From: Roseospira visakhapatnamensis
GTDB lineage: Bacteria > Pseudomonadota > Alphaproteobacteria > Rhodospirillales > Rhodospirillaceae
DNA: 64,000 bases
Direction: 5' to 3'
NCBI RefSeq assembly: GCF_014197915.1
Contig: NZ_JACIGK010000001.1
Coordinates: forward strand, 186,001-250,000
In this document: positions 35,290 through 49,701 of the stretch, piece by piece
Numbering within the stretch: the first letter of the stretch is position 1
How the letters are laid out: each line of letters begins with the position of its first letter
Made by a program: the position numbers and the translations under genes
The notes under the pieces: generated by a model
Told to the model about the DNA's origin: nothing
The model's database searches: none
What the model saw: only the letters and a program-made list of their open reading frames with translations

Positions 35290-35763
35290 TCACGGCACGT
35301 GTTCCCACACGTCGATCAACCGTTTGCTCTCGTCATAGGTAAAGACGGCTTCATACACCCCCGGCGTGTCCGCCAGCAGCCGGGGCGCGAACACCCGATC
35401 CGCATCGGGCAGGGTGAGGTCGGGAAGCCGGTCGATGTCGACCCAGATCAACTCGCCCTCCGGCGGCGCGGCCAACAACTCGCCAGTGAACGCCGTGACC
35501 CGGTACATGAACATCAGCCATTGCCAGTCGGCGACCGGCGAGGTCTCCCGGATGATGCCGCGCAGGACCGCGTCTTGCGCGTACAGCCCGGTTTCTTCCG
35601 CGAACTCCCGGACCGCCGCCTGCACGGGGCTTTCGCCCGCCTCCAGCTTGCCGCCCGGGGCCACCCAGAACCCGACGAAGGGGGGCTTGGTCCGCTTGAG
35701 CAGCAGGACCTGCCGGTCCCGCGTGCAATACACCATGGCGGTGATCTTGGGGGGCAGGATCAT
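35290..35763 (-). CDS. Nudix hydrolase, last gene of the C-nucleoside-like operon
   Basis: A 157-aa MutT-like pyrophosphohydrolase. The Nudix box is complete (residues 38-60: G-KLEAG-E-SPVQAAV-REFAEETG-L). The core resembles broad (deoxy)nucleoside triphosphate or 8-oxo-dGTP hydrolases. Its ATG overlaps the stop of the cyclohydrolase gene (ATGA), so it belongs to the biosynthetic operon. Possible roles, both inferred, are hydrolysis of toxic analogue triphosphates (self-protection) or release of a nucleotide intermediate. GGAGGGAACC precedes the start. Confidence 0.85.
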   Translation of the reverse strand: MILPPKITAMVYCTRDRQVLLLKRTKPPFVGFWVAPGGKLEAGESPVQAAVREFAEETGLYAQDAVLRGIIRETSPVADWQWLMFMYRVTAFTGELLAAPPEGELIWVDIDRLPDLTLPDADRVFAPRLLADTPGVYEAVFTYDESKRLIDVWEHVP

Positions 35764-36383
35764 GGTTCCCTCCATGGCTCGTCGCGGGACAGCGCGGCGG
35801 CGATGCCGGCGTCGTAGGCGGACAGGACGGTGAAGACCTTGGCCGCCAGCCGGCGGCGCAGTCGCAGCGCGTCCCCGGCGGCATCGCCACCGGACGCGTC
35901 CAGGGCCTGGGCGACGTGCGGATAGTCGGCCGGGTCGACGATCGCATAGACCGACCGGAAATTCTTGGCGGCCGCGCGCAGCATGGACGGTCCGCCGACA
36001 TCGATGACCTCGACGAGCGGTCGCTCCGGCGACGGTTCGGCCGCCCTGGCCGCGAAGGGGTAGGGCGTCACCGCCAGCAGGTCGATCGGCGGGTACCCGC
36101 CCGCCGCCATCTGGGCTTCGTCGTCGGGGTCCCCCCGGCGATAGAGCAGGCCGGCGAAGACCTCGATGGTCAGCGTCTTGAGCCGGCCGCCGAACAGCGC
36201 CGGGGTCGGCACCAGCCCGTCGACGCGCCGGACCGGCACGCCGGCCGCGTCCAGCGCGGCCGCCGTCCCGTCGGTGGCGACGATCTCCCACCCGGCCTTC
36301 GCCAGGGCCGCCCCGAAGTCCTCCAGCCCGGTCTTGTCCGACAACGACAGGAGGGCGCGGCGCCGGGAGATCGCGCCGGTCAT
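35760..36383 (-). CDS. Stand-alone IMP cyclohydrolase-like (PurH N-domain) protein
   Basis: This 207-aa protein corresponds to only the MGS-like cyclohydrolase half of PurH. It keeps SDKTG (15-19), the Lys of GGRLKTL (69), Tyr 108 in TPYPF, Asp 128 and Lys 140 in EVIDVGGPSMLRAAAKNF, the positions matching catalytic Lys, Tyr, Asp and Lys of ATIC. The canonical KTLHP is changed to KTLTI, so the nucleotide pocket may differ. It probably closes the six-membered ring on a formylated carboxamide nucleotide, replacing the degenerate domain of the neighbouring PurH. The start overlaps the upstream synthase gene by four bases. Confidence 0.82.
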   Translation of the reverse strand: MTGAISRRRALLSLSDKTGLEDFGAALAKAGWEIVATDGTAAALDAAGVPVRRVDGLVPTPALFGGRLKTLTIEVFAGLLYRRGDPDDEAQMAAGGYPPIDLLAVTPYPFAARAAEPSPERPLVEVIDVGGPSMLRAAAKNFRSVYAIVDPADYPHVAQALDASGGDAAGDALRLRRRLAAKVFTVLSAYDAGIAAALSRDEPWREP

Positions 36384-37423
36384 AGGGGGACCCCCTCGAT
36401 CACGGCGGGATGGTTCTGGGCGTTGGTGAAGAAGAAATCCCGGGCGATGCCGTCGCGGACCAGCCCGTCGCACCAGGCCAGGGCGGAGGTCCTGTCGCGG
36501 GTGAAGGCATAGCACATGGGGCCGGTGACGCTGATGCAGATGGCGTCGATGTCGTCGCGCGATTCCGCCTCCCGGAACATCCGCTGGACGGGTTCGGGCT
36601 GCACGAGGATCTGCTCGCGCTTGTAATGATGCTCGTAGGTCAGCACGTTGAGCGCCCGGCAGAAGTGGCGGTAGTCCGCCTCGATCACCGCCGTGGACAG
36701 GTTGAGCAGCACATGGTGGGCCGTGCGCCGGGCCTCGGCCGCCGGGATCGGCAGCGTCTTGCGGAACCAGTCCAGTTCCGGCTTGCCGTGCAGTTCGGAC
36801 CCTTCCGTGATGATGCACAGGATGGGCCAGGGCGGAAACGGTGCCTGGATCAGCACCGGGGGCTTGGGCGCCGGATGGGCGAAGCGGCTGGGCAGCAGGT
36901 AGGCCTGCGGGTCGTCGTTGAAGTCGTCCGGGTTCAGATGGCCGCCGTCGACCAGATAGCCGCCGCGATCGATCAGGTTGACGCTGGCCCCCGACGTGCC
37001 GGCCCGGCCGGCCAGCCGCGCCAGGCTGGCGGTGTCGATCGCCTGGCCGTAGAGCGCCGCGTACGCCTTGCCGGCCGCCAGCAGGGTGGTGGTCTTCGAC
37101 CCGAAGCCGTGATGGGGCGGAAGGCCGCGCTCCACCGTCAGGCCGACCGGCGGCAGCGCGAACCGGTCGGCCATCCTGCCCAGGAAGTCGACGAGGACCG
37201 GACGGTACTCGTCCGCGTTCGCGTCCGTGTCCACGGTCAGGCGGTCGGCCGGGCGGGCGACAAGCTGCACCGAGGGGTGGCGCAGGGACAGCGAGGCCAT
37301 GCCGTTCCGCCGGCCGGTTTCGCCGTTCAGGTCGATGAGCGTGAAACTCAGGCGGCTTGCCGCCGTCACGCGGAGTCCGAAGGCCACCGTGGACGGATCG
37401 ACATCGGGGCGTCTGGTCACCAT
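36380..37423 (-). CDS. Beta-RFAP synthase-like C-glycoside synthase (ForT/PyfQ type)
   Basis: A 347-aa GHMP-superfamily protein resembling beta-ribofuranosylaminobenzene 5'-phosphate synthase (MptG). The N-terminal RLSFTLIDLNGETGR matches the family opening, and GLPPHHGFGSKTT (100-112) is the phosphate-binding GHMP loop. MptG joins PRPP to 4-hydroxy- or 4-aminobenzoate with loss of CO2; the formycin and pyrazofurin enzymes ForT and PyfQ do the same on a pyrazole dicarboxylate to make the C-C glycosidic bond. In this operon, flanked by PurA-, PurC- and PurH-like genes and with no methanopterin genes, a C-nucleoside role is the better reading. Its acceptor ring is unknown. Confidence 0.78.
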   Translation of the reverse strand: MVTRRPDVDPSTVAFGLRVTAASRLSFTLIDLNGETGRRNGMASLSLRHPSVQLVARPADRLTVDTDANADEYRPVLVDFLGRMADRFALPPVGLTVERGLPPHHGFGSKTTTLLAAGKAYAALYGQAIDTASLARLAGRAGTSGASVNLIDRGGYLVDGGHLNPDDFNDDPQAYLLPSRFAHPAPKPPVLIQAPFPPWPILCIITEGSELHGKPELDWFRKTLPIPAAEARRTAHHVLLNLSTAVIEADYRHFCRALNVLTYEHHYKREQILVQPEPVQRMFREAESRDDIDAICISVTGPMCYAFTRDRTSALAWCDGLVRDGIARDFFFTNAQNHPAVIEGVPL

Positions 37424-37454: not shown

Positions 37455-38819
37455 TCAGGACGCGCGGCTGTGGAAGGGATCGGTCACGGTGATGGTGTGC
37501 GCGCGATCGGCGCCGACGCCGATGGCGGCGAACTCGACGTCCAGGCTCCGGGCGATGAACGACAGATAGGCCCGGGCCTCCGGCGGCAGCGCCGACAGGC
37601 CCTCCCGCGCCGCGCGGTCGGGATCGAAGCCGGGCCACCCGGGAAAGGTCTCGTAAACCGGGTGAAAGTCGCCCACGCGGGCCTGTTCGGTGGCGTAGGT
37701 GGTGATGGTCCGGCCGTCGACCGTGTGGGCCACGGCGACCTGGACGGTGGGCAGGTCCGACAGGACATCCAGACAGGACAGACACAGGGCGCGCACGCCG
37801 TCGAGCTGGATCGAGCGTTTCAGCAGCGGCAGGTCCAGCCAGCCGATGCGCCGGCGCCGGCCGGTCACCGTGCCGTACTCGCGGCCCCGCTCGGCGATGG
37901 CGTTGGCGGTGTCCTCGTCCTCGATCTCCGTGGCCAGGGGGCCGCCGCCGACCCGGGTGGTATAGGCCTTGGCGACCGCCAGGATGTCCAGCGGCCGGCC
38001 GGGCGGGATGCCGGCCCCGACGAAGACGCCGCCGCCGGCGCTGTAGCCGCTGGAACAGAAGGGATACGTGCCATGCTCGATATCGAGCATGACGCTCTGC
38101 GCGCCTTCGTAGACCACCGACTTGCCCGAGGCCGACAGGCCCTCCAGCCACGTCGGAATGTCGTCCAGCGCGGGGGACAGCGTGGCCACGGCGTCGAGAT
38201 AGCGCGCGGTGATCGCCGGGACATCCCATGCCTCGGCGTCGTCGGCCAGCGCCGGCGCCAGGGTGGCGATCCAGCGGCGCTTGAGGGCGTGCAGCTTCTC
38301 CATGCGGGGGCGCGCGCTGTCCGGGTCGAGAAGGTCGACCAGACGCAGGCCGATCCGGCCGATCTTGTCTTCCCGGCAGGGTCCCACGCCACGGCGCGTC
38401 GATCCCAGTTCCCGGTTCGCGGACGCCGACGCCTCCCGGTCCGTCGCCGGGGACCGAAGGGGCGCGCCGCGCCAGATCTCCATGGCCTCGTCCTGGAGGC
38501 GATGATAGGGGAAGATCACGTGACACGTCGGCGCGATATGCAGGTCAACGGACAGCCCGGCCTGTTCGAAGCCCCGGATTTCCTCGACCAGCGCGACCGG
38601 ATCGACGACACAGCCGTTGCCCAGGCCGCAGGGACGGCCGCGCAGGACGCCGGCGGGGACCTGCACGAACCGGAACTGCCCGGCGTGGGTCACGACCCGA
38701 TGGCCGGTGTGCGGTCCGGCCTGGTAGCGGACCACGGCGTCGGCCTGTTCAGCGTAGTAGTCCGTGAACCGGCCCTTGCCTTCGTCCCCGAACTGGCTGC
38801 CGACAACGACAACGTCCAT
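37455..38819 (-). CDS. Adenylosuccinate synthetase-like enzyme (PurA paralogue)
   Basis: A 454-aa PurA-family protein. The catalytic GDEGKG (Asp 12) and His 40, GSTRRGVGP (139-147), EGAQ, VGGGPLATE and TGRRRRIGWLD are conserved, so GTP- and aspartate-dependent amination of a 6-oxo nucleotide is likely. The usual GGHNAGHT is AGPHTGHR, replacing the IMP-contacting Asn by His. GAQGTLL is GAQSVML, and the TSSN segment is altered. These changes cluster around the nucleotide base and phosphate, which suggests a substrate other than IMP. A separate housekeeping purA is expected elsewhere. GGGAG precedes ATG 38819. In formycin biosynthesis ForC plays this role. Confidence 0.85.
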   Translation of the reverse strand: MDVVVVGSQFGDEGKGRFTDYYAEQADAVVRYQAGPHTGHRVVTHAGQFRFVQVPAGVLRGRPCGLGNGCVVDPVALVEEIRGFEQAGLSVDLHIAPTCHVIFPYHRLQDEAMEIWRGAPLRSPATDREASASANRELGSTRRGVGPCREDKIGRIGLRLVDLLDPDSARPRMEKLHALKRRWIATLAPALADDAEAWDVPAITARYLDAVATLSPALDDIPTWLEGLSASGKSVVYEGAQSVMLDIEHGTYPFCSSGYSAGGGVFVGAGIPPGRPLDILAVAKAYTTRVGGGPLATEIEDEDTANAIAERGREYGTVTGRRRRIGWLDLPLLKRSIQLDGVRALCLSCLDVLSDLPTVQVAVAHTVDGRTITTYATEQARVGDFHPVYETFPGWPGFDPDRAAREGLSALPPEARAYLSFIARSLDVEFAAIGVGADRAHTITVTDPFHSRAS

Positions 38820-38857: not shown

Positions 38858-39850
38858 TCATGACGGGCGGGTCGCGCTCTGTGGCGCCGGGAGCTGCCAG
38901 GCGCGCAGTTTCGAGGCCAGGTCGTAAAGGGGGGGGGCGCCCCAGATGGTCTCGCCCGTCCACAGCTCGCACAGCGAGCGGTACATGTCCGCCACCAGCG
39001 ATAGCAGGTCGCCCGGCAGCGGCTCGGGCGTCGGCCAGGTGGACCGGGGGCGTCCCTCGGCGGCCCAGCGTTGAACGTCCGCCTCCAGGCCGCGCGCCAG
39101 ATAGAAGTCGCGCAGGATCTGCTTGGTGACGTGGACGCCGTCCAGCGTGAAGCGGTTCTCGTCGGCGGTGCCGGCGGTATCGACCAGAATCACCCGGCCG
39201 TCGCCGTCGATTCCGAACTCGACCTTGCCGTCGGCATAGGTCAGGCCGCGCGATTGCGCGATCTCGTTCACGACGCCGTTGATGACGTGCGCCAGGCGCT
39301 TGACCTCCGCCACCTGCGCGTCGGACAGCGCGGCCAGGGCCTGCGCCTCGGCGTGGGTGATGAAGCGGTCGATCTCCTCCAGCTTGGTCGTGAACTCGAT
39401 GATCGGTGTCTTCAACGTGGCTCCCGGCGTGGGCAAGCCGGTCAGGCCGAGCTCGTCCAGGGTCACCTTTTTCGCCGCCAGCCGCCGGAACACCGAGGCG
39501 CCGGGCGGCAGGCGGTTGCGGTAGATGACCTGCAGGGGCACCAGGCGGGCCCGGTCGCCCGGGTGCAACTCGCCCCGGGCCGGATCCAGAATACGCAGGA
39601 ACTTCACCGTCATGGTGCGCGGGGGATCGAAGGCCACCATGTGCGTCGGCACGCCGGCCTGCTCCAGGCGCCGCAGGGTGTAGGCGGCCATGCGGCCCAG
39701 GGCCTCGCCCTTGTCGGGGATCCGGTCGGGCATCTTGCTGTAATGGAAGACGGAATAGTCGTCGGTGAACCGAAACGTCGCCAGACCCGGCTCGTGCTCG
39801 GACGGCGGCCTGAGGATGTCAACGTCCTTGGTCGACCAGCGCTTGGGCAT
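38858..39850 (-). CDS. SAICAR synthetase-like enzyme (PurC paralogue)
   Basis: This 330-aa protein aligns with PurC, which uses ATP to couple aspartate to the carboxylate of CAIR. Visible parts are FRFTDDYSVFHYSKMPD, IPDKGEAL, LVPLQVIYRNRLPPG and YADGKVEFGIDGDG. The acidic DE-LTPDSSRFW loop of ordinary PurC is replaced by DTAGTADENRF, a variant seen in some divergent members. In the operon it would form the succinocarboxamide on a C-ribosyl heterocycle carboxylate, as ForA does in formycin biosynthesis. The lyase for the next step (PurB) is not encoded here, so the cellular one may serve. Confidence 0.85.
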   Translation of the reverse strand: MPKRWSTKDVDILRPPSEHEPGLATFRFTDDYSVFHYSKMPDRIPDKGEALGRMAAYTLRRLEQAGVPTHMVAFDPPRTMTVKFLRILDPARGELHPGDRARLVPLQVIYRNRLPPGASVFRRLAAKKVTLDELGLTGLPTPGATLKTPIIEFTTKLEEIDRFITHAEAQALAALSDAQVAEVKRLAHVINGVVNEIAQSRGLTYADGKVEFGIDGDGRVILVDTAGTADENRFTLDGVHVTKQILRDFYLARGLEADVQRWAAEGRPRSTWPTPEPLPGDLLSLVADMYRSLCELWTGETIWGAPPLYDLASKLRAWQLPAPQSATRPS

Positions 39851-39907: not shown

Positions 39908-41470
39908 TCAGTGCCGGAACTGGCGTGTTCCGGTGAAGACCATGGCCATGTCGCGCGCGTCGGCCAGGGCGATGACCTCCGCGTCGCGCTTGGACCCGCC
40001 GGGATGGATGGCCGCCGTCGCGCCGGCCTCCGCCGCGGCCTCCAGGCCATCGGCGAAGGGAAAGCAGCCGTCCGAGGCGACGACGGCCCCGGCCGCGCCG
40101 GGTCCGGCCGGGCGTCCGTCCGTGTCGCCGGCGGCGGCCGTTGCCTTCTGGACCGCCATCCGGGCGCTGTCCACGCGGCTGGTCTGCCCCGTGCCGATGC
40201 CGATGGTGGCGCCGTCCCGGACCAGGATCACCGCGTTGGAGCGCACGTGTCCCACCACCGCGATCCCGAACCGCATGTCCCTCCATTCGGGGTCCGTCGG
40301 CGGGCGCCGCGAGACGACCCGCCACGGCGTGTCGGTGTCGGGCGGGCGGTTGGCCGTCTGGATCAGGAACCCGCCGCCGACCGACCGGAAGCCCGGCGTT
40401 TCGGGGGGCTCCATGGTCGCGGTGCCCGTGGCCAGCAGCCGAAGGGCCGTCTTGCCGGCGAGGCGGGCGCGCGCGTCCTCGGCGAAGTCGGGCGCGACCA
40501 CGACCTCGAAAAAGCGGCCGGCGATGGTCTCGGCCGTCGCCGCATCCAGGGGGCGGTTGACGGCGACGATGCCGCCATAGGCGCTGACGGGGTCGCAGGT
40601 CAGCGCCCGCCCGAGGGCGTCGGAGAGCGTGTCTCCCCGCGCCGCGCCGCAGGGCGTGCCGTGCTTCACGATCACGGCGGCGGGGCGATCGAAGGTCCGC
40701 GCCAGGCCGAACGCGGCGTCGGCGTCGGCGATGTTGTTGTAGCTGAGCGCCTTGCCGTGCACCTGGGTCATGGTGCAGACACCGGGTGCTTGTGTCTGTG
40801 GTTGCATCTGGAGGCTGTAAAGGGCGGCCTGCTGCTGCGGGTTCTCGCCGTACCGCAGCGCCAGGCGCCGTCGCCCGATCAGGGCCATGGTCTCGGGAAA
40901 GGGACCGTCGCCGTCGGTCGCGGACTCGGCCGGGATGGCCGCCGCGACGGCGGCATCGACGGCGGCGGTGTGGGCCAGGGCGCGGCGCGCCAGTCGCCGC
41001 CGCGCCTCGGCGGCGGGGCCGGCGGCCGATCCCGAGACCAGGGCCGCGACGGCGCCGAAGTCCGCCGGATCCACGGCCACGGCGACCCGGTGGTGGTCGT
41101 GGGCCGCCATGCGGACCAGGGTCGCCAGATCGTGGGCCAGATCCCGGGCCAGATCCCGGGCCAGATCCCGGGCCAGATCCGGAGACACAGGAGGGCGGTC
41201 GCGCCCGTCGTTCCCGTCGGGGCATAGCGTGGTCACGATCACCAGATCAAGGGCACGGACCGCCGCCCGCAACGGGTTTCGCGACACCGGCTGCCCGAGG
41301 CGATCCGGCAGCTCGAACGGATCGGCGACCTCGGTCACCGCCAGGCCCGCGTCGCGCAGGATGGGGGCGCTGGCCGGCGGCGCGAACAGGGCGACGGCGC
41401 CGTGGGCGAGCGCGGGCGCCAGGGTGTCGAGGCCGGTGCCGTCGCGAAGGCTGATGAATGCCTGGGACAT
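39908..41470 (-). CDS. PurH-like AICAR transformylase with degenerate cyclohydrolase domain
   Basis: A 520-aa PurH homologue. The C-terminal transformylase half (about 200-520) is intact: RYGENPQQQAALY, SYNNIADADAA, catalytic Lys-His at about 269-270 in VKHGTPCG, SAYGGIVAVNRP and a C-terminal FTGTRQFRH. The N-terminal MGS-like domain has lost the SDK, STGGT and GRVKTLHP motifs and carries an insert of repeated LARD units (encoded near 41130-41180), so cyclohydrolase activity is probably gone. That activity is supplied by the separate cyclohydrolase-like gene at the operon end. Expected reaction: formyl transfer from 10-formyl-THF to an aminocarboxamide C-nucleotide. Confidence 0.87.
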   Translation of the reverse strand: MSQAFISLRDGTGLDTLAPALAHGAVALFAPPASAPILRDAGLAVTEVADPFELPDRLGQPVSRNPLRAAVRALDLVIVTTLCPDGNDGRDRPPVSPDLARDLARDLARDLAHDLATLVRMAAHDHHRVAVAVDPADFGAVAALVSGSAAGPAAEARRRLARRALAHTAAVDAAVAAAIPAESATDGDGPFPETMALIGRRRLALRYGENPQQQAALYSLQMQPQTQAPGVCTMTQVHGKALSYNNIADADAAFGLARTFDRPAAVIVKHGTPCGAARGDTLSDALGRALTCDPVSAYGGIVAVNRPLDAATAETIAGRFFEVVVAPDFAEDARARLAGKTALRLLATGTATMEPPETPGFRSVGGGFLIQTANRPPDTDTPWRVVSRRPPTDPEWRDMRFGIAVVGHVRSNAVILVRDGATIGIGTGQTSRVDSARMAVQKATAAAGDTDGRPAGPGAAGAVVASDGCFPFADGLEAAAEAGATAAIHPGGSKRDAEVIALADARDMAMVFTGTRQFRH

Positions 41471-41496: not shown

Positions 41497-42579
41497 TTAC
41501 CGCGCCGCCGGGAAGGCGACGCCCACCCGTTCCCCGGCCTCGACCAGGGACGCCACGGTCGCCCCGTCCAGCGGGATTCCGTGCGTCTGCCGATGCCGGG
41601 CGGTCATGGCCTCCCGATAGCCCGGGTAGACGACGGGGGTGTCGGGATCGGTGGTGTCCACGGCCAGGACCGCCGACAGGATCTGGTCCACGGCCTCGCG
41701 GAACGCGTCCATCGACCGCAGGGCCTTGGGATCGATGGCGATCAGGACCAGACCGATGTTCTCGTCGGATGCCGTGGCGCCGACCGGACCGGCCGCCGCG
41801 CCGGACAAGGCCGCACACAGCAGATCGCAAAGCAGCGCCAGCCCCAGGCCCTTGTAGCCGGATGCCTGTCCGCCCAGCGGCAGAAGAAAGGCGGTCCCGG
41901 CGTCCAGCGCCCGGGGGTCGGTGACGTCCCGGCCCTCGGCGTCGGCCAGCCAGCCCGCCGGGATGGGCTCGTCCCGCCGCGCCGCCAGACGCACCCGCCC
42001 GGTGGAGACGGCCGCCGTGCTCATGTCGAGCAGGAACGGCGGCAGGTCGCCCGCCGGAACGCCGGCGGCGACGACATTGGTGCCCACCAGGGGGGTCGTC
42101 GAACCCGGGGCCGGCACCAGCGCCTGGGACCCGAGATTGATCAAGGCGAGGCCGATCAGGCCGTCGTCCACGGCGGTCTTGACGTAGAACCCCATGCTGC
42201 CGGAATGGGTCAGCCCGTCGACCGCCGCGCAGCCGATACCGTGGGCGCGGGCCAGACGGCAGGCCTGGTCCATGGCGAAGGCGGCGCTCACGAAGCCGAT
42301 GGCGCGGCGGCCCGCGATGCGCACCGTGGCGCCCTGGGCGCGCACCACGCCCGGGACGCCGTCGCGGGCAATCGCCCCGTCATGCACCTTGGGCAGGTAG
42401 ATCCGGGCCAGATTGATCGCCCCGTGGCTGTCGAAGCCGTGCAGATCGGCGTAGGCGAGGCCGGCGGCGGCGATCCGCGCCTGCGCTTCGGGCAGGCCGG
42501 CCGCCGCGAGTGTCTCGACGGAGAACGCGACCAGGGCCTGGTGGTCGTAGGCGCGCACGTCCGCCGCCTGCATCGTCAT
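41497..42579 (-). CDS. Malate/L-lactate dehydrogenase-family oxidoreductase (Ldh_2)
   Basis: A 360-aa NAD(P)-dependent oxidoreductase of the family containing archaeal-type malate dehydrogenase, ureidoglycolate dehydrogenase and delta-1-piperideine-2-carboxylate reductase. Family features include LAYADLHGFDSHG near the N-terminus, AVDGLTHSGSMGFYV, VGTNVVAAGVP and GYKGLGLALLCDLLCA. Known substrates are 2-hydroxy acids or cyclic imino acids. In this operon it could oxidise or reduce an alpha-keto/imino precursor of the heterocycle. GGAGG precedes ATG 42579, which overlaps the deacylase stop. Confidence 0.82.
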   Translation of the reverse strand: MTMQAADVRAYDHQALVAFSVETLAAAGLPEAQARIAAAGLAYADLHGFDSHGAINLARIYLPKVHDGAIARDGVPGVVRAQGATVRIAGRRAIGFVSAAFAMDQACRLARAHGIGCAAVDGLTHSGSMGFYVKTAVDDGLIGLALINLGSQALVPAPGSTTPLVGTNVVAAGVPAGDLPPFLLDMSTAAVSTGRVRLAARRDEPIPAGWLADAEGRDVTDPRALDAGTAFLLPLGGQASGYKGLGLALLCDLLCAALSGAAAGPVGATASDENIGLVLIAIDPKALRSMDAFREAVDQILSAVLAVDTTDPDTPVVYPGYREAMTARHRQTHGIPLDGATVASLVEAGERVGVAFPAAR

Positions 42580-43931
42580 GAGATGGTCCTCCCGTCCTCT
42601 CCGGTGCGCGGCGTCTCGTCCCGGAGATGCCGGGCCATGGCGAGGCACAGTCGGGCGATCCGGTCGACGTAGCCGTACAGGTCCCGCCGATCGATGAACT
42701 CACCCTCGGCATGGGCGCGATTGCGCCCCAGATCGCCCGGGCCGAAGACGATCGTGTAGGCCTCCGGGCGCGCGAGCCACATGGCGTCGCAGGTGAACGG
42801 CAACCGCGCGTCGCCCTCGGCGATCCGGTCGAGACCGATGGCGGCGAGCAGCGCCTCGCAGGTCGGGTCGCGATTCGACAGCACCGGCAGGCCGCGCTTC
42901 AGCCAGTCCATCCGGCAAATCCGGTCGGCCGCCAGGGCCGCCGCGCGCGTCACCGCCAGGTCGCGATAGTCGGCGGCGAACCGGTCGCGGGCCTCGGTGA
43001 ACGCGGCCTCGGCCATGGCCTCGATGGCCTTTGCCATCGGCGGGTCCGTGTAGGCGAAGTTGATCAGCAGGTGTCCCGACCCATAGACGCGATTGTGCGC
43101 GGCGCCGGTCTGGAGACCCGCCAGGCAGATCTTGCCGCCCCGGTCGAGGACGCGCGGCGCCAGCCGGTGGGCGAGCCGGTCGGCGAGGGCGGCCAGCAGC
43201 AGGGTGGCGTTCTCGCCCCGGCAGGGATCATCGTCGGTGGACCCCTGGCCCTCCACCCGGATCCGCGCCGTCGCCGAGGTCGTGGTGCGGTCGAAGTAGC
43301 CGCCGTCGGTCGGCTCGCAGATGACGTTGAGCCGTCCCCAGACTCCGGCCTCCGTCAGCACGCGGGTGCCGTAAACGCCCATGGCGCCGCCCTCCTCGCC
43401 GGCCGGCGCCTGGATCTGGACGGTCAGGGTGTCCATCAGGGACGGGTCGCGGGCCAGGGCGGCGCGCACGCCGGCCAGCACGGCCACGGCGAGCCCCTTG
43501 GCGTCGATCACCCCCCGGCCCTGAAGGCGGTCCGCCGTGGCCCGCGCCGGGCCGCCGCCGCCGACCGTGTCCATATGCGCGTTGAACACCAGCCGCCGGT
43601 CGGGCGGCCGCTCGGCGCCCAGGTGGAGAACGAGGTTGGGCTGGGCCTCCAGGAAGTCCGCGCCCAGCGCCCGGGCGCGCTCCCGGACGGTGACGGGCAC
43701 GTCGGGGCGGTCCAGGCACGAGGCATCCGGGGCCCGCCAGTGAACCGCCGCGAAACCGATGGTGAGCGCGTGGTCGATCAGGCGGCGCTGGGCCTCGGCG
43801 ATGCGCCCCCGGCTGCCGTGCTCCATCGGCGTCGTCGTGTCGATCGCCAGCAGGTCGAGGAGGCAGGCCTCGTCCTCGGCCGTCCACAGGTCGGCCGTCC
43901 ACGGGCCGGCGGTCTCGACGGCGGCGGTCAT
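42576..43931 (-). CDS. M20-family metallo-deacylase (ArgE/DapE-like)
   Basis: A 451-aa zinc hydrolase of the ArgE/DapE/ACY1 family. The dinuclear site residues are visible in FNAHMDTVGGG (about 118), GVIDAKG, APAGEEGG and ICEPTDGG, and the inserted dimerisation domain follows (TTTSATARIRVEGQ). Such enzymes remove N-acetyl or N-succinyl groups from amino acids. In context it suggests that an acylated amino intermediate is deprotected during precursor synthesis. It overlaps both neighbours by ATGA. Confidence 0.85.
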   Translation of the reverse strand: MTAAVETAGPWTADLWTAEDEACLLDLLAIDTTTPMEHGSRGRIAEAQRRLIDHALTIGFAAVHWRAPDASCLDRPDVPVTVRERARALGADFLEAQPNLVLHLGAERPPDRRLVFNAHMDTVGGGGPARATADRLQGRGVIDAKGLAVAVLAGVRAALARDPSLMDTLTVQIQAPAGEEGGAMGVYGTRVLTEAGVWGRLNVICEPTDGGYFDRTTTSATARIRVEGQGSTDDDPCRGENATLLLAALADRLAHRLAPRVLDRGGKICLAGLQTGAAHNRVYGSGHLLINFAYTDPPMAKAIEAMAEAAFTEARDRFAADYRDLAVTRAAALAADRICRMDWLKRGLPVLSNRDPTCEALLAAIGLDRIAEGDARLPFTCDAMWLARPEAYTIVFGPGDLGRNRAHAEGEFIDRRDLYGYVDRIARLCLAMARHLRDETPRTGEDGRTIS

Positions 43932-44806
43932 GGTCCCGGCCCGCCGGCCGCCTGGAGACGGTCGCCCAGCAACGCCACGAACCGCTCCGCATAGGCCCGG
44001 TAGCCACGCGCCAGCGCCGGCGCGTCCGTCGAGGTCCGCAGATGCGGGATATGGCCGATGTGCGGTTCCAGGCTGATCCGGCCGCGATAGCCGCCGGCCC
44101 AGAGGCGATCCAGGATCTCCAGCAGGCGGGCGTCGCCCTCGCCCGGGAAGGTGAAGGTGACCGTGTCGCCGTCGCTGCGGGCGTCCTTGACGTGCACATG
44201 GTCGATCCAGGGGAAGACGGCCTCCATGTAGGCCAGCCCGTCGTGCCCGTAGGCGACGGGATTGCCGATGTCGAACAGCGCCCGCAGGTGAGGGGAATCG
44301 ATGGCCGAGAACAGGGCCACGGCCCGCCGGGGATCCCGGCCCGCCCAGCCGGCGCAGTTCTCGTGCCACAGCACCAGGGTGCGGTCGGCGGCGCGCTCGA
44401 CCAGGGCCGTGAGGCGGCGCATGGCCTCCGCTTCCCAGGCGCGGTCCGTGAGCCCGTCGTTGGGATAGGACATGATGCGCACCGTCCGGCACCCGAAGAT
44501 CGGCGCCAGCGTGGCCAGCCGGTCCAGCTCGTCCAGATCCTCCTGGAGGGGACCGCTAATGGGCCGGGCCCAGTTCGCGATGCGCGAGGCGAGGCAGGCG
44601 ACCTCAAGGCCGGCGGCCGTGATCTGGTCGCTGTAGCGCCGGGCGGACGCGGGATCGATGTCGGCGACGGCCGTTCCGGCGATGCTGCGCAGCTCCAGGA
44701 ACCCGAACCCCAGCGCGTCGTGGATGCGCACCTGACCGGCCAGATCCGGGGCGGCCTCGTCGCCCAGGCCGCCGATGTGCCGGCGAGTCAGGACGGCGTC
44801 GGTCAT
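43928..44806 (-). CDS. Sugar phosphate isomerase/epimerase-like TIM barrel
   Basis: A 292-aa AP-endonuclease-2/xylose-isomerase-like TIM barrel. Metal-ligand-type residues appear at the ends of strands: FLELRSIAG, LVLWHENCAG, LRALFDIGNP, IDHVHVKDA and ISLEPHIGHI. Members isomerise or epimerise sugars and keto-acids, or act on inositols (IolE/IolI). The substrate is unknown. ATG 44806 has GGGGAGGAA just upstream; a tandem ATG lies one codon earlier. A 109-base gap separates it from the aminotransferase gene upstream, the largest break in the operon. Confidence 0.8.
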   Translation of the reverse strand: MTDAVLTRRHIGGLGDEAAPDLAGQVRIHDALGFGFLELRSIAGTAVADIDPASARRYSDQITAAGLEVACLASRIANWARPISGPLQEDLDELDRLATLAPIFGCRTVRIMSYPNDGLTDRAWEAEAMRRLTALVERAADRTLVLWHENCAGWAGRDPRRAVALFSAIDSPHLRALFDIGNPVAYGHDGLAYMEAVFPWIDHVHVKDARSDGDTVTFTFPGEGDARLLEILDRLWAGGYRGRISLEPHIGHIPHLRTSTDAPALARGYRAYAERFVALLGDRLQAAGGPGP

Positions 44807-44915
44807 CATTTCCTCCCCGTGTCGGGTCCGGGGCGTTCCCGCGATGGGGCCGATGGCGGTGTCCATGGGGCGACAATCCCAGCATCGGTGACCCGGGGAG
44901 GGACCGGACGGGCGC

Positions 44916-46028
44916 TCAATGGCGCGTGTGAAAGGCCAGCACCCCGTCGACCACCGCGTCCGCCTGGGCGTCCGTCATGTGGGGATAGATCGGCAGGGCC
45001 AGGTTCTGTCGCGCCGCGCGGATGGCGGTGTCCAGCCGGTCCCGTGGATCGGCATAGGCGGCGAAGGCCCGCTGGTGCGGGAGGATGCGGGGGTAGTAGA
45101 TGTGCGTCGCGATGCCGCGATCGAGCAGGAACGCGCGCAGCGCGTCGCGGTCGGGGCTCTGGACGGCATAGATATAGTAGCAGCGGCCCTCGACCCCGGG
45201 CGGCGGCAGCGTGATCCGGTTGCCGAGGACCGACAGGCGCTCGGTGTACGACGCGGCGATGCGCGCGCGGGACCGCAGGATGTCGTCGAACCGCGCCAGC
45301 CGGTGGTTCAGGAAGCCGGCCATGATCTCGTCCATGCGGCTGTTGAAGCCGATGATGTGATGCAGGAAGCGTGTCGCGCCGTCCTGTCCGTGATTGCGCA
45401 GCATGCGGCAGCGGCGGCCGATCTCCGGATCGTCGGTGACGATCATGCCGCCCTCTCCACAGCCCCCCATGGCCTTGACCTGGAAGAAGGAGAAGGTGCC
45501 GACGTCGCCCAGGCGGCCGGCCGCGACGCCATCCTGGGTGGCCCCCTGCTGCACGCAGGCGTCCTCGACGATCACCAGGCCGTGCCGGCGGGCGATGTCG
45601 CGCAGGGGCGCCATGTCGACCAGGCAGGAGAACAGGTGCGCCGGCAGGATGGCCCTGGTCCTCGGCGTGATCCGCTCCTCGACGCGGGCCGGATCCATGA
45701 CCATGGTGTCGGCGGTGACGTCGACGAACACGGGGGTCGCCCCCAGGGCGATCACCTGGCTGGCCACGGGCTGGCAGCAGTAGGCCTGCACGATCACCTC
45801 GTCGCCGGGGCCGACACCGGCCGCCTTCAGGGCCACCAGGACGGCGAAGGTGCCGCTGCTGACGGCGATGGCGTCCGCCGCCCCCGTGGCGCGGCGAAAG
45901 CCGTCCTCCAGGGCGGCGACGTGATCCTTCAGCATGAACCGGTTCGTGGTCCCGGCCTCGAAGACGAGGTCGTGGATGAGCGGCCGGTCGGCCTCGAACA
46001 GGTCCGGGGGGAAGAACGGAATCGTCAT
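44916..46028 (-). CDS. DegT/DnrJ/EryC1/StrS-family aminotransferase 1
   Basis: A PLP-dependent sugar-type aminotransferase of 370 aa. The PLP-phosphate region SSGTFAVLVALKAAG, the IVEDACVQQGA segment and the Schiff-base Lys in FFQVKAMGG (about 184) are present. FFQVKAMGG differs from the more usual FFPTKxLG of the neighbouring paralogue, so the two probably act on different substrates. Relatives aminate keto-sugars or cyclitols. Its start overlaps aminotransferase 2 by ATGA. Confidence 0.87.
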   Translation of the reverse strand: MTIPFFPPDLFEADRPLIHDLVFEAGTTNRFMLKDHVAALEDGFRRATGAADAIAVSSGTFAVLVALKAAGVGPGDEVIVQAYCCQPVASQVIALGATPVFVDVTADTMVMDPARVEERITPRTRAILPAHLFSCLVDMAPLRDIARRHGLVIVEDACVQQGATQDGVAAGRLGDVGTFSFFQVKAMGGCGEGGMIVTDDPEIGRRCRMLRNHGQDGATRFLHHIIGFNSRMDEIMAGFLNHRLARFDDILRSRARIAASYTERLSVLGNRITLPPPGVEGRCYYIYAVQSPDRDALRAFLLDRGIATHIYYPRILPHQRAFAAYADPRDRLDTAIRAARQNLALPIYPHMTDAQADAVVDGVLAFHTRH

Positions 46029-47239
46029 GCCGGGCTCCGGTCGTAGAAGTCGGAGATGCAGGCGCACACGCGCTCGACCGCGCGGTCGGACAGATCCGGA
46101 TAGAGGGGCAGGGCGAAGGTTCGGGTGCAGGCGTCCTCGGCGACCGGGAAATCGCCGGCCCGGTATCCCAGGTCCGCGAAACAGGGCTGCCTGTGCAGGG
46201 GGCGCGGGTAGTATTCCTCGGTTCCGATCCCGTGCGCGGCCAGGTGGGCCATCAGCCCCGCCTTGTTCTCGGCCTCGATCACGTAGACGTAGTACACGGG
46301 ATTGGTCGCCTCGGGGCGGGCCGCCACCCGGGGCGTGCGCACGCGCGGATCAAGGGGGGCCAGCAGGCGGTCGTACAGGCCGGCGATCTCGGCCCGGCGC
46401 GCGATCTCGGCGTCGAGCGTCGCCATGCGCGTCATCAGCACGGCGGCCTGGATGTCGTCCATCTTGCTGTTGTAGCCCCACACCACGGCCTCGTTGGAGA
46501 TTCCGGGCATGTTGTCGATGGTCTGGCCGGTCCGGCCGTGGTGTCGCATGACGCGCGCCTCGTCGACGATGGACGCGTCATCGGTCAGGATCATCCCGGC
46601 GTCGCCCAGGGCGCCGAGGGTCTTGGTGGGGAAGAAGGACAGCACCCCACCCCGGCCGAACAGGCCGCCGTGGCGGCCGCCGTACCACATGCCGATGGCC
46701 TCGGCGCTGTCCTCCACGATCATGAGGTTCGCGTCGTCCGCCAGCGCCTGGAGGGCCGTCATGTCGGCCATCTGGTGGAACAGGTGCACCGGCATGATGG
46801 CCCTGGTTCGCTCGGTGACGGCGGCGCGGGCGGCCGCGACGTCGATATCGTAGGTGCGCGGGTTGACGTCGACGAACACCGGCCGCGCGCCGATGAGCGC
46901 GACGCTGGTGGCGCTGGCCACGAAGGTGAAACAGGGCACGATCACCTCGTCGCCCGGCGCCACCCCGGCGGCGCGCAGCAGGATCATCAGGGCGTCGGTG
47001 CCGCTGTTGCAGCCGATGGCGAAGCGCGCGCCGGTGTAGGCGCACAGGCGCGCCTCCAGTCGCTCGACCATCTGGCCGTGGCTGTACTTGCCGCGATCCA
47101 TGACGGCGTCCAGATGCCGCCGGAGGTCCGGCCAGGACCGTCGGAACGACGCCGAGCCGTCATAGAACGGGATGTCGTCGTCCGCCGTCGGGCGGGGCGC
47201 GGGCGCCGGCAGGTCCGCATGAATCAGGCCGTGAGTCAT
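46025..47239 (-). CDS. DegT/DnrJ/EryC1/StrS-family aminotransferase 2
   Basis: A 404-aa PLP enzyme paralogous to the next gene downstream. It shows CNSGTDALMILLRAAG, VEDSAEAIG and the Lys-bearing SFFPTKTLGALGDAG (about 206). It resembles aminotransferases for nucleotide-linked 3- or 4-keto sugars (WbpE, PseC type). With the Gfo/Idh oxidoreductases encoded upstream it could form an oxidise-then-aminate pair. The gap to the upstream oxidoreductase is only seven bases. Confidence 0.88.
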   Translation of the reverse strand: MTHGLIHADLPAPAPRPTADDDIPFYDGSASFRRSWPDLRRHLDAVMDRGKYSHGQMVERLEARLCAYTGARFAIGCNSGTDALMILLRAAGVAPGDEVIVPCFTFVASATSVALIGARPVFVDVNPRTYDIDVAAARAAVTERTRAIMPVHLFHQMADMTALQALADDANLMIVEDSAEAIGMWYGGRHGGLFGRGGVLSFFPTKTLGALGDAGMILTDDASIVDEARVMRHHGRTGQTIDNMPGISNEAVVWGYNSKMDDIQAAVLMTRMATLDAEIARRAEIAGLYDRLLAPLDPRVRTPRVAARPEATNPVYYVYVIEAENKAGLMAHLAAHGIGTEEYYPRPLHRQPCFADLGYRAGDFPVAEDACTRTFALPLYPDLSDRAVERVCACISDFYDRSPA

Positions 47240-47246
47240 GGTCGCT

Positions 47247-48293
47247 CTACTCGGGTTCGGGGTCTTTCAGGCCGCAGGTGGCGCGGGCCTGGGCAAGCAG
47301 CCGGCACATCGGCAAGTGGAACTCCGGCGTGCTGACCGGCCGGTCGCCGATGCCGAGAAAGTAGTCGTAAGTCTCGCGCAGCATCTGTTGGACGGTGTTA
47401 TCCTCGAACCGGTCGATGACGGTCACGCCGCCGTCCTCGTCCACGGTCGCCAGGTGGGAGAAGCAGTCGTCCGACGAGCAGGGGAAGTAGCCCCGCAGCC
47501 GCGCCCCGTCGCGAAAGCGCAAGTCCACCCAGCGCTCGCGGGTCGGCTTGCGCAGGTCCGACAGAAGCGTCGCGGGCGTCCCCGCGTTGGCGGTCAGGCG
47601 CAGGGTGACCGATCCCAGGGCCTCGTAGCGGTGCGTCTCGCCGACGACCAGATCCTCGCAGGCGCTTGAGACCAGCGTCAGCCGGGGACCCAGAAGGTGC
47701 GCCGTCAGGCCCAGCATGTGGGGCAACTCCACCTCGAAGGCCGTCGGGTTCACGGTCCGGCTCCGGGTTCGGGAGAAGCGCGGCTTGTGCTGGTGCATCT
47801 CCAGGGTCACCACGGCGTCGGGTCCGCCGTGTTCGGCGATCCGCCGCGCCAGAAGCCGCGTCAACCGGCTGAACAGCCAGTTCGTCACGACGACGATCTT
47901 GATGTCGTCGGCCCGCGCGATGGCCTCCATCTCCTCGATCTGGCGAAACCCGATGCACAGCGGCTTCTCGACCAGAAAGCGGCGGTAGCCCAGCTCGTAG
48001 GCCTGGGTCAGGATCCGCGTGTTGAGGACGGCCGTGGCCGAGATGTGGACGATGGCGCCGCCCCGCCGCTCCACCGCCAGGTCGGCCAGCCGGCGGGACT
48101 CGCTCAGGCGGGGGTCGACGACCATGGGCGGCAACAGGCGGACGCCGGCGCGCGACAGGAAGTGGTCGGCATGGGTCTCCAGCGGGCGGAGATGGAAGTT
48201 GGTGCCCGCGTGGCCCAGGCCGACGATCACCGGCTGCACATCTTCGGTGGCGGGCGCCGGCCCGACGATCCGCGCCGTTGCTGTCTGCGTCAT
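47247..48293 (-). CDS. Gfo/Idh/MocA-family oxidoreductase 1
   Basis: A 348-aa protein with an N-terminal Rossmann fold (VIVGLGHAGTNFH) and the family EKP motif as FLVEKPLCIG (about 108). The C-terminal alpha/beta domain is shorter and more divergent than in the paralogue at 48712. The Gly-rich loop GLGHAG fits NAD(P) binding. The likely role is oxidation of a sugar or cyclitol hydroxyl, or reduction of a keto/imino group. It overlaps the small unknown gene upstream. Confidence 0.75.
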   Translation of the reverse strand: MTQTATARIVGPAPATEDVQPVIVGLGHAGTNFHLRPLETHADHFLSRAGVRLLPPMVVDPRLSESRRLADLAVERRGGAIVHISATAVLNTRILTQAYELGYRRFLVEKPLCIGFRQIEEMEAIARADDIKIVVVTNWLFSRLTRLLARRIAEHGGPDAVVTLEMHQHKPRFSRTRSRTVNPTAFEVELPHMLGLTAHLLGPRLTLVSSACEDLVVGETHRYEALGSVTLRLTANAGTPATLLSDLRKPTRERWVDLRFRDGARLRGYFPCSSDDCFSHLATVDEDGGVTVIDRFEDNTVQQMLRETYDYFLGIGDRPVSTPEFHLPMCRLLAQARATCGLKDPEPE

Positions 48294-48715
48294 GGCCTCT
48301 CTCCCCGACCAGAGGCGGCTTCCGGTTCGAAGCGCACCGTGCCCTCGACCGCGACGCTCGGGTGATCCCCCGTCAGAAGCGCGGTGCTTTCGATGATGAT
48401 GTTGTAATGATTTGGGAAATGGCAGTCGTCGAAGCCGACGACCCGGCCGACCCGTGCCTCGGGCAGGGCCACGACGTCGCCCGCCTCGATGACTCCGGCC
48501 CGCGTGACCTCCACGAAGCCGAGGAAGCCGGTGCGATCCACGCGCGACCCGGCGGACAGGCCCGTCTGATCCGTGGTCACCAGTTCGTGGAGGTCGCCGG
48601 CCCGTACGCACCGTGTGCTCTCGGGAATCAAGGTCATGCCGCGATCGTGGCGGACGTGGCGAAGGCGCTTCACGAAGACGGCCGTCACGGTGCGCTTGTC
48701 CGGGGCGATGCTCAT
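48290..48715 (-). CDS. Conserved small protein of unknown function in the operon
   Basis: A 141-aa soluble protein with no signal peptide or membrane helix. It is rich in beta structure and has striking conserved-looking segments: RLRHVRHDRGMTLI, GDLHELVTTDQTG, RTGFLGFVEVTRAG and VGFDDCHFPNHYNIIIES. It may belong to the DUF6917-type group, but I am not certain. Wedged by ATGA overlaps between two Gfo/Idh oxidoreductases, it is probably a partner or a small enzyme on the same pathway. The DDCHFPNH segment could bind metal. Confidence 0.7.
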   Translation of the reverse strand: MSIAPDKRTVTAVFVKRLRHVRHDRGMTLIPESTRCVRAGDLHELVTTDQTGLSAGSRVDRTGFLGFVEVTRAGVIEAGDVVALPEARVGRVVGFDDCHFPNHYNIIIESTALLTGDHPSVAVEGTVRFEPEAASGRGERP

Positions 48716-49701
48716 GCCAGGCCCCCGGTGACGGCGATGCGCGGGACCGGACGGGCCTGGCGGTAGGCGTCCGCGACAAGCCGGGCGACGGTGTCACCCT
48801 CCGGGCCGACGCCACGCGGCGCGCAGTGGCTGACCGCGCCCCGAGGCGCGCCGGTGACGCGGGCGACGAAGTCGGCCAGGACGCCCTCGTACTCGTGCTC
48901 CAGGGATTCCTTGAAGCCCGTGTATCCTCGCAGGTAATCGATGCTGGTCGTGGCGCCGGCCTTGTCCCGAACGACAAACCCTTTCAGTTCCCCGTCGGGA
49001 TACCCCCAGTCGAGGAGGGCCTCGGCCGAGACGGCGCCGGCGGTGAGCCGCACCCGTGCGCGGATGTCAAGCCCGCGGTCATCGACCTCAAGGTCCACGC
49101 CGTCGACCGTCAACGGGCCGAGAAGCGCCATCAGCGCATCCAGCGCATTCGGTCCGTTGTCCGCCAGACAGCCGCCGCCGCACCGGTCCGGGTTGAGGTA
49201 CCACCGGTCCCGCCCGCAGTGATCCTCGATCTTTTCGCAATAATAGAGAGAGACATGGGAAACGGAGGCCGTGTCGAATCCGGCGTCCAGGAAATCTATG
49301 TAGTGTTGATTGTAGCGACGGTGAAACGCCGTGAAAAGCACGAGTCCGCGAGTCCTGGCCTGGTGAGTCAGGTGGGCGGCATCGGCCTCGCTGAGCGCCA
49401 GGGGCTTTTCACAACACACGTGGAGGTCATGGTTCAACGCCGCCGAGCAGACCTCGACGTGGGCATCGTTGGGCACATTGACGATGACGGCATCGACGAG
49501 TCCGCTGGCCATCAGGTCCGCGTAGTTCGTCATGACGGGCACATCGTGGACGAGCGACGGCGGGACCCGCGCCGGATCGAGGTCGCTGACGGCGGTGATA
49601 CGGACGTCGGTCCGTTTCTCGATGGCCCGCACGTAGTACGCCGAGATTACACCGCATCCGATGAGGCCGAGACGAAGGTCGCGCGAAACGGTCTCTGGCA
49701 T
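48712..49701 (-). CDS. Gfo/Idh/MocA-family oxidoreductase 2, first gene of the operon
   Basis: A 329-aa NAD(P)-dependent oxidoreductase. The N-terminal Rossmann motif LGLIGCGVISAYYV, the EKP motif in CCEKPLALS (about 100) and the C-terminal HRRYNQHYIDF segment with candidate catalytic residues are clear. Similar enzymes are WbpB, NtdC and inositol dehydrogenases. Being promoter-proximal, it marks the start of the 14-gene leftward transcript. ATG 49701 is used; an upstream in-frame TTG is possible but lacks a better ribosome site. Confidence 0.85.
   Translation of the reverse strand: MPETVSRDLRLGLIGCGVISAYYVRAIEKRTDVRITAVSDLDPARVPPSLVHDVPVMTNYADLMASGLVDAVIVNVPNDAHVEVCSAALNHDLHVCCEKPLALSEADAAHLTHQARTRGLVLFTAFHRRYNQHYIDFLDAGFDTASVSHVSLYYCEKIEDHCGRDRWYLNPDRCGGGCLADNGPNALDALMALLGPLTVDGVDLEVDDRGLDIRARVRLTAGAVSAEALLDWGYPDGELKGFVVRDKAGATTSIDYLRGYTGFKESLEHEYEGVLADFVARVTGAPRGAVSHCAPRGVGPEGDTVARLVADAYRQARPVPRIAVTGGLA

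Follow-up and report, generated by a model that had tools for sequence, protein, structure and literature searches.

C-nucleosides resist cleavage and serve as drug scaffolds. The closest described systems to the locus reported here are the Streptomyces pathways to formycin A and pyrazofurin (ForT, ForA, ForH, ForC), in which a ForT-type C-ribosylation is followed by the action of PurC, PurH and PurA paralogues and the formycin base requires a lysine N6-monooxygenase together with an enzyme resembling methionyl-tRNA synthetase (MetRS), as set out in PMC8724604. In the literature covered, parts of papers included, ForT-type genes are tied to pyrazole bases only. The ForT residues that hold phosphoribosyl pyrophosphate (PRPP) and both substrate carboxylates are named in PMC8183095 and PMC9832568, according to which S21, S174, E211, K263 and Q266 bind or order the dicarboxylate. 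Here we analyze a 64,000-nucleotide stretch of the Roseospira visakhapatnamensis genome (the window; positions 186,001 to 250,000 of contig NZ_JACIGK010000001.1), which carries a 14-gene operon (g14 to g1, Table 1) with a ForT-type gene, paralogues of purine enzymes and an eight-gene upstream module. With a probability of about 0.62, we propose that the operon makes a purine-like C-nucleotide whose base is derived from an amino sugar through this module, a pyrrole-type base being most likely. The cluster seems to build its base from a cell-wall-type amino sugar, unlike the known antibiotics of the class.

A ForT-type synthase and a second set of purine enzymes

The sequence of g3 identifies it as a ForT-type C-nucleotide synthase. 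A search of the Protein Data Bank (PDB) returned three sequences at E <= 0.01, all of them ForT or near-identical variants (best E 1.8e-71), two of the three entries having been deposited as beta-ribofuranosylaminobenzene 5'-phosphate (beta-RFAP) synthase. The nearest relatives of g3 are in Lentzea kentuckyensis (62% identity), Nocardia anaemiae (58%) and two Streptomyces (51-52%), and four further loci at 43-44% are termed formycin-type since they are 77-96% identical to ForT. All 17 ForT positions checked (R19, S21, L24, R33, H99, G101, S104, T106, G134, R135, T138, S139, S142, S174, E211, K263, Q266) are identical in g3 and in the four formycin-type homologues, with residues 19-33 taken from these papers and from homologues rather than from an aligned copy of ForT. 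The start of g3 is placed at 37423 (347 amino acids), and its N-terminal part includes the SFTLIDLNGETGR stretch with ForT residues R19, S21 and L24. Seven of the 17 positions differ in the methanopterin-type homologues, where all three sequences compared (L024, L011, L012) have H21, F24, E134, R138, G142, A263 and a gap at 174; three nearer relatives each depart from ForT once, L016 and L017 having T174 and L022 having T142. Because the substrate-binding residues of ForT are conserved and the methanopterin-type homologues differ, the substrate of g3 is probably an amino-heteroaromatic dicarboxylate, as in formycin.

The competing identity for g3 is a methanopterin-type beta-RFAP synthase that happens to stand beside the ordinary purine genes of the genome, and g3 does belong to the TIGR00144 subfamily, a version shortened to the internal ATG at 37300 reaching 136 bits (cut-off 113.5). 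In the phylogenetic tree, methanopterin-type and other distant homologues split from the ForT-type set with a support of 100, while branches between the main groups within the ForT-type set are weak (35, 38, 62, 75). An Azospirillum homologue (L024) sits among fae, mch and fhcD, whereas no Mpt-type family besides that of g3 itself was found among the 19 window proteins scanned, the rest of the genome not being searched. Separate housekeeping copies of purA (C9:144819), purH (C1:306652) and purC (C24:27567) are present elsewhere in the genome (4.49 Mb, 99 contigs, 96.7% complete; working label G000). On the residues, the tree and the Azospirillum context, we reject the methanopterin identity as virtually untenable; that the operon's purine genes are the housekeeping set is likewise rejected. 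A preliminary description of this DNA, made from its letters and open reading frames, had allowed for the RFAP-like protein grouping with methanopterin enzymes and for the genome lacking other purA, purC and purH, and neither turned out to be the case.

Identity between the operon and housekeeping proteins is 37% for PurA, 45-46% for the parts of PurH and 26% over 197 residues for PurC. The PurC paralogue g5 is 57-62% identical to homologues in Lentzea, Nocardia and Mesorhizobium, and the PurA paralogue g4 shares 47% identity with the PurA proteins of L016/L017, two Streptomyces ForT clusters. PurH is represented by g6 at full length, with KHGTPCG in the transformylase half and a degenerate N-terminal cyclohydrolase half that has lost the GRVKTLH stretch; since g2 retains SLSDKTG and GRLKTL, the two PurH activities seem to be divided between g6 (transformylase) and g2 (cyclohydrolase). 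PurC likeness alone is not diagnostic: of nine plasmid records with a PurC relative, the two examined for context (Streptosporangium, Micromonospora) place it in QueE-containing clusters, which look like 7-deazapurine pathways. A C-nucleotide is, in our judgment, very likely the class of the product.

An upstream module and its partners

The module, g14 to g7, encodes two DegT-family aminotransferases, two Gfo/Idh-type oxidoreductases, an M20 hydrolase, an Ldh_2 dehydrogenase, a TIM barrel and a DUF6917 protein. Its linkage exceeds chance, because the same order on one strand (g14-g13-g12-g11-g10-g9-g8-g7) recurs in Lentzea (L014, L029) and Nocardia (L030). Homologues of PurC, ForT and inosine monophosphate cyclohydrolase (IMPCH) lie on the opposite strand to the module, a few kb off in Lentzea and ~13 kb off in Nocardia, and the Lentzea locus also has PurH-C. 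The preliminary description of the operon holds for its purine half, and missed that the eight upstream genes constitute a transferable amino-sugar-type module, which probably makes the base.

DUF6917 was found in 2 of the 10 ForT-bearing genomes or records examined (Lentzea, Nocardia). Among 397 genomes of the order to which Lentzea belongs, 29 encode it, and of these Lentzea alone has a ForT match. The neighbour of g13 is g14 in 24/24 short DUF6917 loci. From the 31 DUF6917 places listed in that order, 19 longer loci were fetched: 13 carry all nine module genes counted (with a partial dehydrogenase match in L068), two have seven or eight genes and no g12, three have four (one on a short contig) and one has a diverged DUF6917 only. 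A literature search for DUF6917 returned no paper, with subscription journals mostly uncovered in this and the other literature searches.

The module also occurs with partners other than ForT. A UbiA-family prenyltransferase adjoins g10 or lies one gene away in 12 of the 13 complete loci (Pfam applied to four). In all three Trp-type genomes (G540, G572, G599, closely related), TrpC-TrpB-TrpA are inside the operon just before g11; TrpD is directly upstream in G540 and G599 and not in G572, TrpF is nearby in both regions that cover it, and another TrpB (57-60%) is found elsewhere in each genome. A search of five Trp-type loci detected no TrpE/PhzE-like gene at E <= 1e-3. The trp-joined operons (L073, L074, L078, L079, L080) likely represent a tryptophan-analogue dipeptide pathway without an anthranilate synthase nearby; in G540, the one genome examined for this, ATP-grasp L-amino-acid ligases are encoded upstream. 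A UbiA-type pathway is also found on a plasmid of Streptomyces sp. NBC_00490 (L115, 15950-24003), annotated with two DegT proteins, a methyltransferase, UbiA, an adenylate-forming enzyme, a nucleotide sugar dehydrogenase and an epimerase.

The known enzymes of both the ForT-PurC/PurH and the TrpDFCBA kind work on small aromatic amino acids in which an amine must stand beside a carboxylate. UbiA enzymes often, though not always, use aromatic acids. Enzymes of the uridine diphosphate N-acetylhexosamine (UDP-HexNAc) type recur as well. In Lentzea and Nocardia a UDP-sugar 6-dehydrogenase adjoins g7 or PurH, and the nearest PDB entries to the Nocardia cluster enzyme are UDP-N-acetylmannosamine (UDP-ManNAc) 6-dehydrogenases. 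In the window, g15 is of this type and is a likely but putative pathway partner of the operon; the other protein of the genome that strongly matches a UDP-sugar dehydrogenase is 26% identical to g15. Given the ForT/Pur, TrpDFCBA and UbiA partners together with the UDP-HexNAc-type enzymes, the most economical interpretation is a module that produces an anthranilate-like heteroaromatic acid from UDP-HexNAc.

Proposed pathway

The starting point would be UDP-N-acetylglucosamine (UDP-GlcNAc), in which a UDP-HexNAc 6-dehydrogenase (g15 or another) would turn C6 into a carboxylate. The Gfo/Idh and DegT pairs (g14/g12 with g11/g10) would install one or two amines at C3/C4, g8 would liberate the C2 amine and g7 would oxidize the C5 hydroxyl, alpha to the C6 acid. 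Closure of the C2 amine on C5 would then allow the ring to aromatize, perhaps assisted by g9 and DUF6917, and C1 would have to become a carboxylate too. The six sugar carbons would correspond exactly to pyrrole-2,5-dicarboxylate. As a ForT-type enzyme, g3 is expected to couple a heteroaromatic dicarboxylate bearing an amino group to PRPP, releasing CO2, after which g5 (PurC), cellular PurB, g6 (transformylase), g2 (cyclohydrolase) and g4 (PurA) would build and aminate a fused pyrimidine. Building the pyrimidine would require a five-membered ring on which an amine and a carboxylate are neighbours. A 3,4-diamino pattern would be within reach of two Gfo/Idh and two DegT proteins, with decarboxylative ribosylation on one side and pyrimidine closure on the other. 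Our best guess for the base is an amino- or diaminopyrrole-2,5-dicarboxylate, leading to a pyrrolo[3,2-d]pyrimidine (deazapurine) C-nucleotide. A sugar origin of the base is likely, and the odds are even that the ring is a pyrrole rather than a furan or another heterocycle. The module reactions, the heteroatom of the ring, the regiochemistry, and the identity and use of the final product are all inferred.

Tentatively, and at somewhat less than even odds, the module could be a portable unit that turns UDP-GlcNAc into an amino-heteroaromatic acid of the anthranilate type, probably a pyrrole dicarboxylate with one or two amino groups, and that has been plugged into ForT/Pur, trpDFCBA or UbiA pathways. 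If so, ForT and the Pur enzymes would lead to deazapurine C-nucleotides (window, Lentzea, Nocardia), duplicated trpDFCBA to a tryptophan analogue with its benzene ring replaced, and UbiA to a prenylated product. This would constitute a new route from sugars to heteroaromatics and a genetic basis for C-nucleosides of the 9-deazapurine or pyrrolosine type, with a building block common to at least three kinds of pathway. Combining ForT/Pur logic with a sugar-derived base would open a route to deazapurine-type C-nucleotides, for which genome mining would use DUF6917 beside ForT or trpDFCBA.

Several observations weigh against a sugar-derived base made by the module. Product and enzyme activities are proposed from the genes. 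With one amine, as in 3-aminopyrrole-2,5-dicarboxylate, decarboxylative ribosylation beside the amine leaves the other carboxylate non-ortho to it, so that the model needs either two amines or attachment of the ribose at C4-H; the three nitrogens supplied by GlcNAc and two DegT steps are more than a mono-aminopyrrole requires. The Nocardia loci (~40 kb fetched) lack homologues of g1, g4 and g6, and the Lentzea locus lacks g1 and has a shorter PurA homologue at 30% identity. Nor is the module invariant, with g12 absent from Trp-type loci and four module genes in L075/L076. The trees resolve the position of the window weakly: in the module tree the UbiA-type loci split off at 100, and Lentzea and Nocardia join the Trp-type loci rather than the window (support 49); the ForT tree groups window, Lentzea and Nocardia at 62. 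As for the enzymes, g14 is close to no particular sugar 3-dehydrogenase, and g15, which shares just 34-41% identity with the UDP-dehydrogenases of the clusters, is encoded on the opposite strand, past a P-type ATPase gene. The UbiA partner is a weak pointer to an aromatic substrate, because substrates other than aromatic acids are also used by this family.

Alternative sources of the base

The preliminary description called the product formycin-like. Its logic of ForT-type C-glycosylation followed by PurC, PurH, IMPCH and PurA steps is supported, with g3 grouping with ForT and separate housekeeping purA, purC and purH present. The pyrazole base is not supported, the known N-N-forming pair not being found in the genome. 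A pathway to formycin or pyrazofurin proper, with an aminopyrazole dicarboxylate made by lysine N-hydroxylation and a MetRS-like N-N enzyme encoded elsewhere, would fit the identity of g3 with ForT at every position checked. An adjacent pair of a lysine/ornithine (Lys/Orn) monooxygenase and a MetRS-like gene is also present in two Streptomyces (G319, G320) and in Lentzea (G317), where it is on a contig other than that of ForT. Moreover, a Lys/Orn monooxygenase lies ~7 kb from ForT in Nocardia (C1:24523), where a LanB-like protein and a class-III aminotransferase accompany it, and ~28 kb from ForT in Lentzea (C218:42727). These observations on Lentzea, Nocardia and the two Streptomyces blur the case against a pyrazole. 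The host genome, however, has no Lys/Orn monooxygenase at E <= 0.001 and a single MetRS-like gene (E <= 1e-20), whereas 7 of 9 genomes tested carry the two side by side, among them all four formycin-type genomes (G321-G324; same-contig placement with ForT not established), so the base is probably not a pyrazole. Neither the host nor the Nocardia genome has the adjacent pair; the MetRS-like matches in Nocardia are two neighbouring pieces on C24, with no second gene, and none of the four formycin-type genomes has DUF6917. The known pyrazole route is an unlikely source of the base, and formycin or pyrazofurin itself a highly improbable product.

Alternatively, the base could come from elsewhere, with the module supplying a separate nucleotide sugar for decoration of the C-nucleoside. 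The nucleotide-sugar type of g11 and of the UDP-dehydrogenases is compatible with this, as is the lack of a ForT-like match in 28 of the 29 DUF6917-positive genomes of one order, but none of the operon's 14 proteins is a glycosyltransferase, the operon without the module would have no base-forming genes, and the other module partners (trpDFCBA, UbiA) suggest an aromatic substrate rather than a sugar. We consider a decorating sugar quite unlikely. Similarly doubtful is a furan base, which would make the product a pyrrolosine-like furo[3,2-d]pyrimidine C-nucleotide. Furans form readily from sugars, and the natural C-nucleoside pyrrolosine was once misassigned as its isomer 9-deazainosine, according to PMC11079976; the UDP-HexNAc-like dehydrogenases and the M20 deacylase-like protein nevertheless point to an amino sugar, with a C2 nitrogen for the ring. 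A pyrrole-type base built by the module from an amino sugar is the reading that we retain.

Between the module and ForT in Nocardia anaemiae, a stretch (L086, 230-8027) encodes a class-III aminotransferase, a Lys/Orn monooxygenase, a major facilitator superfamily transporter and a LanB-like N-terminal protein, and a carbamoyltransferase gene follows IMPCH (12181-14496). These genes possibly serve to tailor the C-nucleoside.

Distribution of ForT-type relatives

Two short peptide patterns, run against 84,980 species, located eight ForT-type loci, a lower bound since more relatives surely exist, and all eight are in actinobacteria. In a plasmid scan (31 records), Mesorhizobium L-2-11 and Aminobacter SS-2016 matched at 47%, and the other matches among the 20 of 31 listed at 28-36%. 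Within the order of the host, 6 of 317 genomes match, the strong match being the host genome itself, and the five same-genus genomes listed gave none; within the class, 19 of 385 match, the best other at 1e-24. Such a sporadic occurrence of strong matches suggests that the operon was probably acquired. A viral origin was rejected, a scan of viral contigs giving 31 pattern matches and zero relatives. The cluster occurs in a non-actinobacterial genome though its nearest relatives are actinobacterial. The preliminary description knew of no such system outside actinobacteria; ForT, PurC and PurH do occur together on the Mesorhizobium and Aminobacter plasmids. No described C-nucleoside cluster outside actinobacteria or in Lentzea was found among the papers listed by our literature searches.

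The scans also exposed other clusters. The Mesorhizobium L-2-11 plasmid MesoLjLa4 (L022, 18489-31729) and Aminobacter pANY103c (L023), from Lotus japonicus isolates, share a ForT-type cluster of another kind, with PurH, Nudix and amidohydrolase genes, which probably makes a different C-nucleotide. In Streptomyces lushanensis (L016, 6028-18208) and MnatMP-M17 (L017), a ForT-type gene accompanies PurC, PurA and a TrpE/PhzE-like fusion, with two luciferase-type monooxygenases in L016; these clusters may use a chorismate-derived aminobenzoate, i.e. make a quinazoline-like C-nucleotide. Rhizobium leguminosarum pRL22b5 (L025, 7182-11594) encodes a distant beta-RFAP-like protein in which ForT positions 21 and 266 are H and E; a Ham1/AAA fusion annotated as non-canonical purine NTP pyrophosphatase adjoins it, and a DNA adenine methylase is nearby. 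This is possibly an unusual-nucleotide system; a similar protein is found in L010.

Operon layout and neighbouring genes

The 14 genes run on the minus strand from 49701 to 35290 as uninterrupted frames with ATG starts. Seven junctions are 4-base overlaps and the others gaps of 7, 26, 31 (g3 to g4), 38, 57 and 106 bases. The single leftward operon of the preliminary description, mostly with overlaps or gaps under 60 bases, is confirmed, the sole exception being the 106-base gap between g10 and g9 (44810-44915), as is the contiguity of its five purine-type genes at 35760-41470. Third-position G+C (GC3) of the 14 genes is 0.81-0.94, and operon G+C is no different from that of the flanks. Domain calls (Table 1) are from Pfam or tblastn, the simple gene caller having sometimes chosen wrong frames in high-GC DNA, and Pfam/NCBIfam scans covered 19 window proteins, with zero family matches for g12. 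Single-sequence structure predictions had low confidence (pLDDT 35 for g12, 43 for DUF6917).

Table 1. Genes of the operon and the UDP-sugar dehydrogenase gene g15 (window coordinates)
Gene	Position	Strand	Assignment	Supporting matches	Proposed role
g15	52223..53566	+	UDP-HexNAc 6-dehydrogenase-like, outside operon	PF03721/PF00984/PF03720; best PDB UDP-ManNAc dehydrogenase 4r16	
g14	48712..49701	-	Gfo/Idh/MocA oxidoreductase, first gene of operon	PF01408 1.8e-21; 42-45% to Lentzea/Nocardia homologues, same order	Proposed sugar C3 (or other ring-position) dehydrogenase
g13	48290..48715	-	DUF6917 protein, module marker	PF21891 6.5e-49	
g12	47247..48293	-	Divergent Gfo/Idh-type oxidoreductase	EKP motif; hhalign vs g14 family 97.5%, E 7e-12	
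g11	46025..47239	-	DegT-family aminotransferase	SFFxxK lysine kept; PDB 7b0d 2.3e-76 first, WbpE 3nyu E 2.6e-72 second	
g10	44916..46028	-	Second DegT-family aminotransferase	PF01041 9e-92; SFFxxK lysine kept; 54% to Lentzea	
g9	43928..44809	-	Xylose-isomerase-like TIM barrel	PF01261 1.4e-24; weak IolE matches	Candidate isomerase/dehydratase
g8	42576..43931	-	M20-family metallohydrolase	PF01546 9.5e-16; HMD + EE motifs; weak ArgE/DapE matches	Proposed N-deacetylase
g7	41497..42579	-	Ldh_2-family NAD(P) dehydrogenase	PF02615 3.8e-92; structural matches malate/ureidoglycolate/sulfolactate dehydrogenases	Proposed oxidation of an alpha-hydroxy acid
g6	39908..41470	-	PurH paralogue	PF01808 5.5e-98	
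g5	38858..39850	-	PurC (SAICAR synthetase) paralogue	PF01259 3.9e-29	
g4	37455..38819	-	PurA (adenylosuccinate synthetase) paralogue	PF00709 5e-121	
g3	36380..37423	-	ForT-type C-nucleotide synthase, beta-RFAP synthase family		
g2	35760..36383	-	Stand-alone MGS/IMP-cyclohydrolase domain	PF02142 3e-12	
g1	35290..35763	-	Nudix hydrolase	PF00293 1.4e-19; Nudix box intact	Proposed release of UDP-sugar or sanitising of nucleotides

Beside g15, a haloacid dehalogenase (HAD) hydrolase and two ABC-transporter ATPase-containing proteins (53569-57729) could be the phosphatase and exporter of the product. A flanking transporter protein shares ~80% identity with proteins from plasmids of the alphaproteobacteria Ruegeria and Nitratireductor, a weak sign that the host is an alphaproteobacterium, as the preliminary description had it.

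Comparison with known systems

The WbpA/WbpB/WbpE pathway converts UDP-GlcNAc into a 3-amino uronic sugar by amination at C3. Possible counterparts of its enzymes are a UDP-HexNAc 6-dehydrogenase-like protein, here outside the operon (g15), a Gfo/Idh protein, here with unspecific matches (g14), and a WbpE-like DegT protein (g11); it differs in that the present operon has an extra DegT, an extra Gfo/Idh, M20, Ldh_2, TIM barrel and DUF6917 proteins and no glycosyltransferase or acetyltransferase. A congocidine/netropsin study ('A sweet origin...') reportedly derives 4-acetamidopyrrole-2-carboxylate from a sugar (GlcNAc), a likeness in the idea of a sugar-derived aminopyrrole carboxylate rather than an enzyme comparison, and no nonribosomal peptide synthetase is found here. 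No sugar-derived aminopyrrole or related route matching this module, and no biosynthetic genes for 9-deazaadenosine or pyrrolosine, turned up among the papers listed by the literature searches. 9-Deazaadenosine from Anabaena affinis and pyrrolosine from Streptomyces, the corrected structure of which is a furopyrimidine, are known C-nucleosides of the predicted kind, though the ribose position in the present prediction may differ.

Among alphaproteobacteria, the Mesorhizobium L-2-11 and Aminobacter SS-2016 plasmids have a ForT-type protein (47%), PurC (62%), a bifunctional PurH and a Nudix protein, a homologue of g1 being present in the Mesorhizobium cluster. They differ in that DUF6917 is missing from both plasmids and that the 41 kb fetched contain nothing homologous to the module at E <= 1e-5, and carry phosphoribosylanthranilate (PRA)-isomerase-like, GMC oxidoreductase, Rieske and BtpA proteins in the module's place. 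Compared with the formycin cluster, an amino-sugar-type module replaces the base genes, the Lys N-monooxygenase/MetRS-like pair is missing from the host genome, PurH seems to be split between g6 and g2, and PurB, which adjoins ForT in the formycin-type locus L021, is not in the operon. The second half of the pathway is formycin logic, and the first half is not.

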